Shown piece after piece: positions 11,625 to 62,135 of a DNA stretch of 64,000 bases. A program made the translations under genes and the position numbers. How positions within the stretch are numbered: position 1 is the stretch's first letter; each line of letters starts with the position of its first letter. Source of the DNA: Mucilaginibacter terrigena. GTDB lineage: Bacteria > Bacteroidota > Bacteroidia > Sphingobacteriales > Sphingobacteriaceae. Location: NCBI RefSeq assembly GCF_004168255.1, contig NZ_SEWG01000003.1, positions 186,001 to 250,000 of the forward strand, written 5' to 3'. The notes beneath the pieces are model-generated. The model did no database searches. It was not told where the DNA came from and saw only the letters and a list, made by a program, of their open reading frames with translations.

Positions 11625-11658
11625 TTTGATTTCGGATTGCGGATTTTCGATTTCGGAT

Positions 11659-12282
11659 TTAATGCTCCACGTCTGTTTGCGCTTTTAACGCTTGTTGGTG
11701 AAAGGTATTTATTTTGGCAATAAGTTCATCAAACGGCACCTCGCCGGCTACTCCGCAATCAAACAAATGGAAGAATACCGATGGTTTCAGGCTTTCAAAA
11801 TAATCTATCAGCGCGCAGTTGTAAACGATCTGGCAGGGACCTTTTATGTTCTTGATAAGGCGCTCTATGCCCTTCTCTACTTTAATTTCGGTAGTATGGT
11901 TCGATCTTAGTTCGCCTTGCGGGAAAACAACCACCAGGTTCTCTGGGTCGTTAAGCAAGCCGGCAGCGTACTGCAGCGATTTTACCATCTCGCGCGATGA
12001 CCTGTTGATAGAGAACCCGCCGAAAAGGTTTAGCAGCATGCGTTTTTTCAGATGGTCTTCCTGCATCATAATGTACAGGTGGCGGTTTAAGTGCCAATAG
12101 GCCAGGTAATTGCCCCAAAGGCCATCCCACCAGCTAAAGTGATTGGACAGCAGCAGTACCGAATGCCCCGGTTTGGGTGTAAATGGCATAACCACCAGCC
12201 GGTTGAAAGCCCTGCGCATGCGGTAACGCATATACATGGCAAACCAGTTGCTAAAAAGCTTTACTCTGCGGGCGGGTATCAT
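11659..12282 (-). CDS. PlsC-like acyltransferase, second of a tandem pair
   Basis: This 207-residue paralogue has the same HX4D box (SNHFSWWD; His48 and Asp53) and the same FPQG motif (VVFPQGELRS) as its neighbour. Both also share an N-terminal amphipathic stretch and the sequence YAAxLLNDPEN, so they arose by duplication. The pair is separated by 34 bases holding a TTTCGGATT-type repeat. Its start overlaps the stop of the upstream hydrolase by four bases (ATGA). Likely an inner-membrane-associated enzyme acylating a lipid or carotenoid glycoside. Confidence 0.78.
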   Translation of the reverse strand: MIPARRVKLFSNWFAMYMRYRMRRAFNRLVVMPFTPKPGHSVLLLSNHFSWWDGLWGNYLAYWHLNRHLYIMMQEDHLKKRMLLNLFGGFSINRSSREMVKSLQYAAGLLNDPENLVVVFPQGELRSNHTTEIKVEKGIERLIKNIKGPCQIVYNCALIDYFESLKPSVFFHLFDCGVAGEVPFDELIAKINTFHQQALKAQTDVEH

Positions 12283-26488: not shown

Positions 26489-26510
26489 TTTAGATTTATC
26501 CTTACCGGGC

Positions 26511-26598
26511 ATGTCATTGCGAGGAGCGATAGCGACGTGGCAATCTCAGCATATCCGATTGTCCTATGAGATTGCCACGCTATCGCTCGCAATGACAT
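26511..26598. repeat. Intact 88-bp ATGTCATTGCGAG hairpin element (short form)
   Basis: Long imperfect palindrome: outer arms ATGTCATTGCGAG (26511-26523) and CTCGCAATGACAT (26586-26598) are perfect, and most of the interior pairs too, leaving an apex around 26540-26552. The same element occurs at 28760-28845; its two halves flank the GIY-YIG gene at 34141-34557 and a solo half is at 48638-48676. It lies between the dnaA terminator and the next gene. Confidence 0.9.
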
Positions 26599-26651
26599 GG
26601 TGTTTAATATTGTTTTTTATCCTTAAATTGCCTCAACAAATCAGCTCAATT

Positions 26652-28717: not shown

Positions 28718-28759
28718 GGGGGTAAAGATAAGGGAAAGCCTCTTAACAGCCATAAAAAC

Positions 28760-28845
28760 ATGTCATTGCGAGCGATAGCGTGGCAATCTTAGCATATCCG
28801 CATGTCCTCTGAGATTGCCACGTCGCTACGCTCCTCGCAATGACA
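28760..28845. repeat. Intact 86-bp ATGTCATTGCGAG hairpin element (short form)
   Basis: Second complete copy. It shares with 26511-26598 the arms and the apex sequence AGCATATCCG-(C/A)(A/T)TGTCCTnTGAG. It sits just upstream of the crtD start and downstream of the asd terminator. Confidence 0.9.
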
Positions 28846-28865
28846 ATTTTTAAAGGTTTTCAAAT

Positions 28866-31850: not shown

Positions 31851-31929
31851 GACAATTTCGGATTTCGGATTTTCGATTTCGGATTTATTAGAACGATAAG
31901 TTTAACTTTAAACTTTTGACTTAATACAA

Positions 31930-33113: not shown

Positions 33114-33515
33114 ATGGAAGCTAAAGAACTTTTTAACGAGAAACGAGGGGCAGAACAGCAGCCAAAAAAGGACAGTCCGCTGGTAAGTTTAGAGCGCGAT
33201 CTTAAATTCTTTAACGAATCTATCCGCGAGGTAGCTATAGAAATTATGGTTGAAGGACTTTCACTACACCCGATATTCATCGCCCATCAGCATGAAATTA
33301 AACTCGGTGAACTGATATTGGACAGGATAGAACTGAACACCGAATGGAGCATCCACGCCTCAACTATAGAAGAATTTGTAGAGCGCGGCATCATCAAAAC
33401 TGAATTGAAGGAACGTTTCCTGAACACCTATAAAAACCCCAACGATTTTATGTGCCTGTTTGTGGTAGTACCAGAAGGGGCTAATTTTGTGTATTATCCG
33501 TATGTAAAAAGTTGA
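33114..33515 (+). CDS. Conserved-looking hypothetical protein
   Basis: The 133-residue product begins with a Lys/Glu-rich stretch (MEAKELFNEKRG) and continues with a predicted alpha/beta domain (SIREVAIEIMVEGLSLHPIF, then FMCLFVVVPEGANFVYYPY). No signal peptide or membrane segment is present. It starts 17 bases after the repeat-protein gene and is likely co-transcribed with it. I do not recognise it. Confidence 0.62.
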   Translation: MEAKELFNEKRGAEQQPKKDSPLVSLERDLKFFNESIREVAIEIMVEGLSLHPIFIAHQHEIKLGELILDRIELNTEWSIHASTIEEFVERGIIKTELKERFLNTYKNPNDFMCLFVVVPEGANFVYYPYVKS

Positions 33516-33600
33516 AATGTTATAAGGTTGAAATGTTGTAAAGTTATTTTTACCTTTAAACCGTATCAAACATTCCAACATTTAACTTCCAACGTTACAA
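33511..33600. repeat. GTTGAAATGTT palindromic repeat, copy 1
   Basis: The left arm GTTGAAATGTTATAAGGTTG plus AAATGTTGTAAAGTT and the right arm AAACATTCCAACATTTAACT plus TCCAACGTTACAA are imperfect inverted copies. It begins over the stop codon of the preceding gene. The same family occurs at 36765-36876 and 62043-62135. Confidence 0.7.
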
Positions 33601-33610
33601 AAAACTCCCC

Positions 33611-34120
33611 ATGTCTGATAAAAAGATCCTGATATTAAACCAGCAGCAAATACAGCAGAAGATAGACCGTATTGCTTACCAGATATTGGAAGATAATTTT
33701 GACGAGAAGGAGATCCTTATAGCCGGGATCCTGCCCCGCGGTAACCACGTAGCCGGGCGTTTAAAAACCGTTTTAGATAAAATTGCACCGTTTACCAGCA
33801 GGTTGTTAACTATTGAACTGGATAAACAAAGCAGCCAGCTGCAGGCCAAAACCAATTTTGACGTACAGGACTGCAGTAATAAAGTTATTGTTTTGGTTGA
33901 TGATGTGCTGAACAGCGGCAAAACCCTCGCTTACGGTTTCGGCGTATTCCTTGATGTCCCCCTAAAAAAGCTGCGCACGGTAGTACTTATAGACCGTAAC
34001 CACAAAAACTTCCCGGTAACTACAGATTATGCCGGTATTGCCCTCTCAACTGTTATTAAAGAGCATGTAGACGTGGTGCTGGACGAAGAAGGACAGGAGG
34101 ATGCTGTTTATTTGAGGTAG
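33611..34120 (+). CDS. PyrR-like phosphoribosyltransferase-domain protein
   Basis: The 169 residues form a type I PRTase fold with the PRPP-binding loop VIVLVDDVLNSGKTLAYG in the centre and a flexible hood region before it. Length and order resemble PyrR (uracil PRTase and pyr regulator), but the gene is isolated from pyrimidine genes, and substrate residues cannot be judged by eye. It may be a nucleobase PRTase or a regulator using PRPP as ligand. Confidence 0.75.
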   Translation: MSDKKILILNQQQIQQKIDRIAYQILEDNFDEKEILIAGILPRGNHVAGRLKTVLDKIAPFTSRLLTIELDKQSSQLQAKTNFDVQDCSNKVIVLVDDVLNSGKTLAYGFGVFLDVPLKKLRTVVLIDRNHKNFPVTTDYAGIALSTVIKEHVDVVLDEEGQEDAVYLR

Positions 34121-34140
34121 AATGTTACGCGCTTACCACC

Positions 34141-34557
34141 ATGTCATTGTGAGCGATAGCGTGGCAATCTCATAGGACAAGTAAACGGCTTTTCTAATAA
34201 AGGGATAAATGAAAATCCACCAGTACTACGTTTATATAATTACTAATGCTTCTAATAACGTGCTTTATACCGGCGTTACCAATGATTTAGCGGATCGTGT
34301 ACTTCAGCATAAGGATAAAATGAATAAAGGTTTCTCGGCGCAATATCAATGTGGCAAACTTGTTTATTACGAAGAATTTCAATGGATACAAGATGCTATA
34401 GCGCGTGAAAAACAAATAAAGGCCGGTTCGCGGAAAAAGAAGATAGCTTTAATAGTTAACGAAAATCCCGATTGCAATGACTTAAGCATCGGGTGGTATG
34501 ATTAGCTTATTTACGCTTGGATATGCTGAGATTGCCACGCTACGCTCGCAATGACAT
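34141..34557. mobile_element. Long form of the ATGTCATTGCGAG hairpin element, carrying a GIY-YIG nuclease gene
   Basis: The left half (34141-34179) and right half (34519-34557) are the two arms of the element seen intact at 26511-26598, nearly identical in sequence. In the intact element the halves are separated only by three apex bases (GAT); here a 339-bp segment (34180-34518) with one gene sits exactly there. The segment ends weakly mirror one another (AAGTAAA and TTTACGCTT). I read this as a compound element in which the nuclease is encoded in the loop of its own palindrome. Direction of evolution (gain or loss of insert) is unknown. Confidence 0.75.
34209..34505 (+). CDS. Single-domain GIY-YIG nuclease
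   Basis: The 98-residue protein is a complete stand-alone GIY-YIG domain. The first strand carries YVYIITN and the second LYTGVTND, the two halves of the family motif. The catalytic arginine is Arg30 (DLADRVLQHK) and the metal-binding glutamate is Glu67 (AREKQIK). There is no DNA-binding extension, as in the many small UvrC-N-like nucleases of bacteria. The gene starts 67 bases inside the left half of a palindromic element and ends 14 bases before the right half, so it is likely part of that element and may cut at its hairpin. Confidence 0.9.
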   Translation: MKIHQYYVYIITNASNNVLYTGVTNDLADRVLQHKDKMNKGFSAQYQCGKLVYYEEFQWIQDAIAREKQIKAGSRKKKIALIVNENPDCNDLSIGWYD

Positions 34558-34564
34558 AGCTGAG

Positions 34565-35074
34565 TCAATGCAACCCCACCACCACTCCCGCCAACTTCTC
34601 CACACTCATATCTATACCATCAACCACGTGAGTAGCTTTTAAATAAAAGCCTTCGCGTTCGGCCAGTTTGTGTTCGATAAATGCCACCAGTTCATCGCCT
34701 TTTTTGCCTTGCAGAACGGGGCGCGGGGTTTTGGCGTTTTCTAAACGGTTAGCCAGTGCCTTGGGCGATAATTGTATATAAAGTGTTTGTCCGTGGCTGT
34801 TCATCCAGTCCATGTTATCAAAAAAGCAGGGCAGGCCACCGCCGGTTGATACTACCGTGTTTTGTGGATAAGCAGTTGTTTTTAATATTTCGCTTTCCAG
34901 GTTACGGAACGCTTCTTCGCCATGCGATGCAAAATATTCGGCAACGGTTGAACCCACTTTGGCTTCAAGGGTATGGTCAAGGTCAATAAATTCGTAACCT
35001 AATCCTGCTGCCAGTTTGCGGCCCCATGATGTTTTACCGCAGCCCATAAATCCAACTAAAAATATCAGGCCCAT
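34565..35074 (-). CDS. aroK: Shikimate kinase
   Basis: This kinase phosphorylates shikimate at the 3-hydroxyl in aromatic amino acid synthesis. The P-loop is GFMGCGKT (8-15), the shikimate-binding Asp is in DLDHTLE, the central motif is STGGGLPCF, and the lid carries KTPRPVLQG. At 169 residues it is complete. Its ATG overlaps the stop of the upstream DoxX-type gene by one base, so the two are translated together from the operon DUF1599-DoxX-aroK. Confidence 0.95.
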   Translation of the reverse strand: MGLIFLVGFMGCGKTSWGRKLAAGLGYEFIDLDHTLEAKVGSTVAEYFASHGEEAFRNLESEILKTTAYPQNTVVSTGGGLPCFFDNMDWMNSHGQTLYIQLSPKALANRLENAKTPRPVLQGKKGDELVAFIEHKLAEREGFYLKATHVVDGIDMSVEKLAGVVVGLH

Positions 35075-36764: not shown

Positions 36765-36876
36765 GTTGTTGTAAAGTTGTAATGTTTGAAGGTTGAAATG
36801 TTATCAGCAAATAGGGTGAAAGGATTTATGTAAAGTACTTTAACTTTACAACGTTTCAACCTTACAACGTTTCAAC
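36765..36876. repeat. GTTGTAAAGTTGTAATG palindromic repeat, copy 2
   Basis: Left arm at 36765-36802 and right arm at 36842-36876 are imperfect inverted copies (GTTGAAATGTT against AACGTTTCAAC units) around a 39-base centre. It occupies the whole gap between the divergent DUF1599 and folP genes, so their promoters must lie in it. Confidence 0.72.
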
Positions 36877-48144: not shown

Positions 48145-48765
48145 TTATTTATTTAGTAGACGAATATATAACGGTAAAACCGCACCTTATATATATAGGT
48201 ATAGTATTTAACATCTTTTAACGTATGGATAGAGGGTAAATGTGCAGCTTATCAGGATTTACAACTTTTTAAAAGTTGTAAATTTTTTCCTTCGTAAGTA
48301 CAGATATGTTCACGTTCACGATACACATACAACGTGAACAAAACATGAACATCTTATAATCAGGCATTTATAAATATATTACTGACAAAATAACGTCACC
48401 ATATGTTTTGGAATAATTGCTATGCAGATACTTGGTGAATATATTTAATTAAAGGACGGGTTTTTTTGTTACTTTAAATTTCTACAGAGAGGCAGGTCTG
48501 ATAGGCCACAGGCCTTGCCAACTAAACCCGATTGCAGCGGATACCGGCCCTGCGCCTAAAGCCTGTGCAGTATTAGCGTAAAGCGGGGCTGGCGGGAGAT
48601 AGAAGCCCTATATTTGCTTTTCAAAAATTTAGCCTAACGTCCTACGAGATTGCCGCGCTATCGCTCGCAATGACATGATTTATAAATATTAAGTTAAATT
48701 TTGCCCATCCTGCCCAGTTCTTCCACTCAATCAATCCATTACAAAAATCTTTTTCTCCCAAGCCC
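48145..48765. other. Gene-free region between bamD and rpsL with three distinct structures
   Basis: No gene is supported in these 620 bases. Three things stand out. First, GTTCACGTT (48308-48316) and AACGTGAAC (48331-48339) are perfect inverted 9-mers, with another ACATGAACAT copy right after, suggesting a regulator site. Second, a GC-rich stretch at 48481-48602, quite unlike the AT-rich flanks, with several short complementary segments. Third, a solo half of the ATGTCATTGCGAG element at 48638-48676. The rpsL promoter follows. Confidence 0.5.
48638..48676. repeat. Solo half of the ATGTCATTGCGAG element
   Basis: The 39 bases match the right half of the intact element (26560-26598) at all but three positions: CGTCCTACGAGATTGC at its start and CTCGCAATGACAT at its end. 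No left half is present. Its start coincides with the apex position where the nuclease-bearing segment is placed in the 34141-34557 copy. Confidence 0.85.
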
Positions 48766-62042: not shown

Positions 62043-62135
62043 GGTTGAAAAGTTGTAAATGTTGAAAGGTTGTAAAGTTATTGCAGCCGCCATTAGGTAA
62101 CATTAAAACATTTAAACTTTCCAACATTACAACAA
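62043..62135. repeat. GTTGAAAAGTTGTAAATG palindromic repeat, copy 3
   Basis: GGTTGAAAAGTTGTAAATGT plus TGAAAGGTTGTAAAG and ACATTTAAACTTTCCAACAT plus TACAACAAC are imperfect inverted copies filling the gap between rplP and rpmC. Same family as 33511-33600 and 36765-36876. Confidence 0.72.

Follow-up and report, generated by a model that had tools for sequence, protein, structure and literature searches.

The GIY-YIG gene and its repeats in the window genome

The window, a 64,000-nucleotide stretch of a Mucilaginibacter terrigena contig, contains a complete ORF on the forward strand (34209..34505) that encodes a 98-aa predicted nuclease of the GIY-YIG family. The gene is bracketed by two inverted REP units whose TGTC tags face outward, and the whole element, 418 bp long and holding this one 98-aa gene, sits between a phosphoribosyltransferase gene (33611..34120, forward strand) and a shikimate-kinase-like gene (34565..35074, reverse strand); both neighbors, named by reading their proteins without a family search, serve as anchors of an orthologous site. 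The left unit (34140..34170, forward strand) carries its tag at the outer end (34142-34145), followed by an outer stem ATTGT/GCAAT and a CT tail, and matches the halves of gene-less dimers at 97-98%; the right unit (34529..34557, reverse strand) is inverted and also has TGTC at its outer end. Two forward-strand segments, TCATAGGACAA (34171..34180) and GGATATGCTG (34519..34528), represent the halves of a dimer apex: the former has the same bases as the loop of a gene-less dimer at 26510..26599, the latter is placed by comparison with the apex of that dimer, and both fit its loop, which reads ...CTCATAGGACAA-TC-GGATATGCTGAG... on one strand. The gene segment (34181-34518, 338 bp) is placed between ACAA and GGATATG; in this copy it does lie, as the original prediction held, exactly in the apex of the palindrome. 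The 39-bp halves had also been described as near-identical to those of intact hairpins: this is true of the left half (34137-34180), which has 98% complementarity to 26559-26602 over 44 nt, but the fit of the right half (34519-34557) to the second arm of the 26510-26599 dimer is looser, with three small gaps totaling 7 nt within the inner stem.

The window protein matches PF01541 (GIY-YIG) at 62.3 bits (cut-off 22.6) over residues 5-78; this is its sole Pfam match, and Pfam finds no separate DNA-binding domain in the 98 residues. The catalytic Tyr, Arg, and Glu of the GIY-YIG domain are present. Arg30 and Glu67, pointed out at the outset, are both invariant in a 20-row alignment. Across the alignments, conservation is complete for Y20, H34, E67, and N86, and complete or at least 90% for Y9 and R30. 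In 9 of 14 hand-chosen pairs, those with finite dS, dN/dS is 0.04-0.13 (the other 5 are saturated), and the enzymes of close relatives are under purifying selection. The predicted model (pLDDT 93.7) best matches the UPF0213 structure 1zg2 (Foldseek E 3.8e-4), with Slx1, a branched-DNA nuclease, next (E 8.2e-3 at best); among solved structures, profile searches return 1zg2 (E 1.5e-12) and 1ywl (E 4.2e-8). These small GIY-YIG proteins of UPF0213/COG2827, nearest among solved structures in sequence and in fold, are without assigned function. At least 7997 relatives were scored. An anti-phage defense gene was considered and rejected (PADLOC match in 0 of 4 proteins tried), as was a phage gene (PHROG gave three weak matches for the window protein and 0 for the other 3 proteins tried); six viral contigs hold a relative, several of them flanked by tagged units by eye.

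The REP unit is built from a TGTC tag, an outer stem ATTGC/GCAAT, a variable inner part, and a short tail. Besides the gene-bearing element, the window has two gene-less dimers of the same family, at 26510..26599 and 28759..28845, and an unpaired half-site recognized by sequence match (48647..48681, reverse strand). Folded as single strands (26513-26600 and 28759-28847), the intact dimers give z scores of -9.0 and -7.3, and 0 of 200 shuffles are equally stable. A search of the genome (4.28 Mb, 17 contigs) with a 24-nt half-site, allowing up to 3 mismatches, returns 37 matches vs 0 for the reversed pattern, and exact TGTCATTGCGAG occurs at 62 sites, again vs 0 for its reverse; 23 pairs of exact sites lie within 150 bp of each other, and all 23 are tag-outward. 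A script sorted thirty loci fetched from the 37 half-site matches into 19 dimers, 1 copy with the gene, and 10 sites that are single, at a contig edge, or degenerate; of these 10, two (L029 and L032) resemble degenerate dimers by eye. The expectation that copies without the gene would be commoner is borne out for this repeat type in this genome: 23 exact tag-outward pairs vs one gene-bearing copy. At three other loci (L038, L040, and L045), type-A half-sites run into longer shared sequence instead of a second arm, TTAGTTCTTCGTTAGGAATGGCAG... in two of them and a variant in the third. The window also has two dispersed short repeats of other types, AAAGTTGTAATGTT (33508-33545, 36773-36802, and 62050-62079) and ATTTCGGATTTCGG (11629-11661 and 31855-31887).

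The genome has 15 PF01541 matches in all. One gene (L003), interrupted by an internal stop, is enclosed by a second hairpin family (TGTCATTTCGAACGAGG...); another (L011) has units of a third family (TTTGTCATGCTGAACG...) on either side. Others (L002, L004-L010, L012, and L013) adjoin tRNA genes and, with L140, form a tRNA-adjacent clade whose neighbors are tRNA Met, Val, Leu, and Ser. At several of these loci degenerate tRNA copies stand alongside, the anticodon arm replaced by a palindrome such as CCCGATTTAAATCGGG; tagged REPs are found at 0 of 6 such loci. Tandem arrays with a 350-bp period, each repeat a tRNA-Val-like piece plus a GIY-YIG gene (L004-L009), run into two contig ends (G000:C6:225612-226524 and G000:C8:156709-157621), with three copies visible at each; three CCCGATCCAAATCGGG palindromes with 116-bp spacing at another contig end (G000:C2:794173-794420) are probably another such array.

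Bracketing by tagged REPs in relatives and across phyla

Does the arrangement recur outside this genome? A protein search of 60 relatives gave matches in 54 (match list to ~6e-8). Loci were fetched down to ~4e-10, together with 12 chosen paralogue loci, and the resulting set of 117 comprises 109 loci from relatives (L047-L155) and eight from the window genome. Inverted repeats scoring >14, the maximum for shuffled flanks being 14.0, flank 74 of the 97 testable mobile-type loci (98 mobile-type loci in all) vs none of the 13 vertical GIY paralogue loci and none of the 6 tRNA-adjacent ones. Under a stricter definition (YGTCAT with a perfect stem of 5 or more), a unit is found on either side of the gene at 62/97 loci and on both sides at 42/97; the controls give 0/28 for distal windows, and 13/970 (either side) and 0/970 (both) for shuffles. 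The units are polar: sides with exactly one unit are tag-outward in 58 cases and inward in 10, and loci with one unit per side are outward-outward in 19, mixed in 1, and inward-inward in 2.

The association does not extend to all GIY-YIG genes: the vertical paralogue (13 loci) and the tRNA-adjacent clade (6 loci) lack such REPs. The paralogue, a GIY-YIG-like protein of ~118 aa (L144-L155 and L136), is present in many genomes of the genus, has flanking REPs at 0 of 13 loci, and looks vertically inherited. A side observation concerns one relative, in which five type-B REPs with 147-bp spacing lie beside L115, next to a truncated GIY-YIG copy (G030:C1:970237-970857).

A scan of species genomes confirmed at least 579 loci, from which the best 80 were taken, a non-random set ranked by closeness to the window protein; distal controls are available for 66 of the 80 loci, the other 14 lying on contigs too short. 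In this best 80 of at least 579, inverted repeats scoring at least 14 flank 45 loci, vs 1/66 distal windows and 0/1600 shuffles. Within 250 bp of the gene, 69 of the same 80 loci have a YGTCAT-tagged REP on either side and 45 have one on both (distal 4/66 either side and 1/66 both; shuffles 12/800 and 0/800); 24 of the 69 have it on one side only, and the remaining 11 loci on neither. The original prediction had staked much on GIY-YIG genes elsewhere being flanked by such repeats, and they are: at 74 of 97 loci in relatives and, on either side, at 69 of the best 80 of at least 579 across phyla. The loci fall into 24 taxonomic groups (19 phylum-level names and 5 unranked record titles), and for the best 80 of at least 579 at least one locus is flanked on either side in 23/24 groups and on both sides in 22/24. 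Among the same best 80, sides with exactly one unit are tag-outward in 59 cases and inward in 8, and loci with one unit per side are outward-outward in 16, mixed in 1, and inward-inward in 0.

Twelve loci, picked from 32 matches in a plasmid collection to spread organisms, were read by eye, and 10 are bracketed, among them a Neisseria locus with units of mixed orientation; a Photobacterium locus has REP unit(s) on one side only, and a Rhizobium tumorigenes locus on neither side. GIY-YIG genes stand beside tagged units in Azospirillum lipoferum, Sinorhizobium meliloti, Novosphingobium aromaticivorans, and Neisseria gonorrhoeae. A copy on a Planktothrix agardhii plasmid (L162) is found between an MmeI-type restriction gene and the DISARM gene drmA.

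The junction between gene and repeat differs among copies. Within the 250 bp examined, the distance from REP tail to start codon is 5-208 nt and from stop codon to REP tail 0-188 nt; the insert boundary, predicted to be constant, varies freely, and a fixed insertion point common to all copies is contradicted. Because the gene-REP distance varies and some genes, as in Azospirillum, have whole REP dimers on either side, the class is described as a gene bracketed by outward-tagged REPs; placement exactly in the apex fits the window copy but not the class.

Enzyme clades, REP types, and orthologous sites

The flanks were sorted by hand into five types, A-E, which were defined after viewing them, and the regular expressions were revised once, when the type C pattern also matched type B. 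On a tree of 104 proteins (100 columns, many unresolved forks), 90 rows are typed and 8 of 98 mobile-type rows untyped; REP type changes 6 times over the 90 typed rows, the minimum for five types being 4, and every type is more clustered than in 500/500 shuffles. Two loci break the clade-type match: L074 falls in an A-type clade but has a type B flank, and L064, beside the C group, has a type E flank.

Copy numbers follow the enzymes for some types. Type A sites have a median of 62 in genomes with the window's clade vs 4 in those without (p 4e-5), clade A being taken as the window's own clade only, though a second A-flanked clade exists; type D sites number 10 with the D clade vs 2 without (p 0.003) and also track clade A (p 0.0125), whereas the difference for type B by its own clade, 23 vs 6, is not significant (p 0.135). 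Clade presence was compiled by hand for these comparisons, which miss genes below the cut of the match list. G017, the REP-richest of the 60 relatives with 337 type-A half-sites, has no A-clade gene among the matches listed. In 198 Bacteroidota genomes, with presence defined as a match at E 1e-12 or better, the enzyme is found in 26 of the 29 genomes with at least 3 TGTCATTGCGAG sites, such a match being absent in the other 3, vs 82/169 of the remaining genomes (p 2.8e-5); at a threshold of at least 5 sites the association is weaker (14/17 vs 94/181, p 0.02).

Empty sites at orthologous positions had been suggested as a check; such sites exist, as do sites with REPs only. The window element occupies the hpt-aroK interval, where the gap is 444 bp; both neighbors are kept at 18 of 30 loci, and two of these (G017, 157 bp; G013, 118 bp) have a REP dimer only. 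The other 15 of the 18 comprise 7 gaps of 0-54 bp and 8 with other sequence, 3 of which contain bare YGTCAT hexamers. In Sphingobium, the interval between fnrL and a regulator gene holds the element in 7 records (one with a frameshift) and lacks it in 4. Two element-less records, L285 (TomTYG64) and L286 (TomTYG74), have a single hairpin tagged at both ends, a possible excision scar whose sequence looks like the left portion of one REP joined to the right portion of its partner; the other two have no REP at the fnrL site. In Azospirillum lipoferum 4B, sufB and sufC are split by the gene and by the REP dimers that stand on either side of it; in four relatives (90.6-97.3% identity) the two suf genes are 55-129 bp apart with no such unit by eye. 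No target-site duplication, as a DDE-type insertion sequence or MITE would leave, is seen by eye at the three sites, where the flanking spacers have diverged.

A probable nuclease partner for tagged REPs

What moves these repeats? The units share with CGTC-tagged REPs a YGTC tag (TGTC or CGTC) that ends a short palindrome, a stem starting with AT, an arrangement in dimers, and dispersed intergenic copies. The available part of the survey that defined CGTC-tagged REPs, which covers A. lipoferum, N. aromaticivorans, S. meliloti, and the neisserial dRS3, describes a stem of 8-9 bp that starts with AT, a loop of 4-5, and a tail near CCA, with TGTC tag variants allowed; tyrosine and other transposase genes were checked, and the authors conclude that these REPs apparently have no transposase of their own and leave the mover open (Di Nocera et al., 2013; PMC3733652). 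The dimers of that survey are mostly of one polarity, as are the pairs in the window genome (23/23 tag-outward, which may correspond to the HH arrangement of the survey). The window unit differs in its 5-bp uninterrupted outer stem, ATTGC/GCAAT, and CTC tail; types such as GTCATGCCGAACTTGTTTCGGCATC and CGTCATCCCGGCGAAGGCCGGGATCCAC have the stem, loop, and tail of the survey. Unlike in the survey, the units are linked here to a GIY-YIG gene. In the open-licence literature, no paper was found that connects GIY-YIG proteins with REPs: in the single paper to contain “GIY-YIG” as well as “repetitive extragenic palindrom” the two appear, in the part available, as separate genes, and a term search of the text of RepRanger 2025 finds no mention of a nuclease.

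A close parallel is offered by REPtrons, in which a small enzyme gene also stands between inverted REPs, gene-less dimers are in excess, and an enzyme clade is specific for its REP family. Unlike the GIY-YIG protein, RAYT (TnpA-REP) is an HUH Y1 tyrosine transposase (IS200-like), and its REPs carry a GTAG tag rather than TGTC/CGTC. The analogy with REP/RAYT pairs, proposed at the outset with the proviso of an unrelated enzyme, fits: inverted REPs bracket the gene, and GIY-YIG is the only Pfam match. Other elements resemble this one in part. GIY-YIG homing endonucleases (of the I-TevI kind, and HEG-like free-standing genes) share the catalytic domain and the selfish-gene reading, whereas here there is no separate DNA-binding domain and no intron, the junction varies, the ends are palindromic, and gene-less copies exist. 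Penelope-like retroelements, in which a GIY-YIG domain likewise serves an element, carry a reverse transcriptase, for which a 418-bp element has no room.

The best reading is that the elements are REPtron-like, with a GIY-YIG nuclease unrelated to RAYT as the partner. On balance, we consider it probable that the bracketed 98-residue gene represents the autonomous form of a mobile family of repeats; the gene-less dimers would be internal-deletion copies that its nicking enzyme is predicted to mobilize in trans. We infer cleavage, movement, and the direction of derivation as follows. The REP would be the substrate of the enzyme, which would recognize it in folded form (single-stranded or cruciform DNA) and nick it by the YGTC tag; host repair or replication would then insert the freed REP-bounded piece at another place. 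Gene-less dimers would arise from gene-bearing copies by internal deletion, not the reverse, and would still be mobilized in trans by nicking of the folded REP beside the tag. The GIY-YIG enzyme would take the part that RAYT plays in GTAG-REP REPtrons; no GIY-YIG enzyme is known to form the covalent intermediate used by HUH transposases.

Could the nuclease instead be a guest of repeats spread by something else? The main rival is homing: the enzyme would recognize REP dimers already in place, cut them at the apex, and insert a copy of its own gene during break repair, in the manner of free-standing GIY-YIG homing endonucleases. The window gene does sit in the apex of a dimer type common in the genome, at the hpt-aroK site two other species have a dimer without the gene that the window copy contains, the order of events at orthologous sites is compatible, and the match of clade to REP type would be expected from target specificity too. 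However, homing predicts a constant junction, and gene-REP distances are 5-208 and 0-188 nt; the protein is a nuclease domain only, and the spread of the REPs themselves is left unexplained, all of which makes this account unlikely. A role in host repair, or hitch-hiking, is also unlikely: the gene would be a useful or neutral passenger of REP-rich intergenic DNA, e.g., a UvrC-like hairpin-processing nuclease, and the REPs would move otherwise. Purifying selection fits such a role, Slx1 is among the best structural matches of the predicted model, and small COG2827 genes of Caulobacter, one with an SOS box, are discussed as repair genes in the available part of one paper (PMC1839093). The patchy, multi-copy distribution speaks against it, as do the outward polarity, the clade-to-family match, presence and absence at orthologous sites, and insertion within the sufB-sufC pair.

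It is highly improbable that REPs and GIY-YIG genes just favor the same intergenic locations and are functionally unrelated. Both are intergenic, and the tRNA-adjacent clade lacks such REPs (0/6), but distal windows of the same loci have a tagged REP on either side at only 4/66 and on both at 1/66, the vertical paralogue has none (0/13), and neither outward polarity nor the clade-to-family match is expected by chance; distal, shuffled, and paralogue controls all disfavor a chance pairing.

Because related genes are bracketed in 22 of 24 groups, in the best 80 of at least 579 loci, the REPtron-like reading makes the enzyme likely to be the missing partner that spreads a large repeat class. A broader proposal, that small GIY-YIG nucleases mobilize the entire CGTC/TGTC REP superfamily, whose range runs from Bacteroidota and Chloroflexota to alphaproteobacteria and the neisserial dRS3, is put forward tentatively, at a little under even confidence. 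Position, polarity, and co-phylogeny tie a 98-residue enzyme to the REPs, and the question of what moves CGTC REPs becomes testable at the bench. If the mobilizing role is confirmed, a second, chemically different class of enzyme would be added to the REP/RAYT idea, thousands of small genes annotated only as “GIY-YIG nuclease family protein” would gain a biological reading, and, on the broader proposal, bacteria at large would harbor a class of mobile elements that spreads hairpins by means of a hairpin-specific nicking nuclease, with no transposase.
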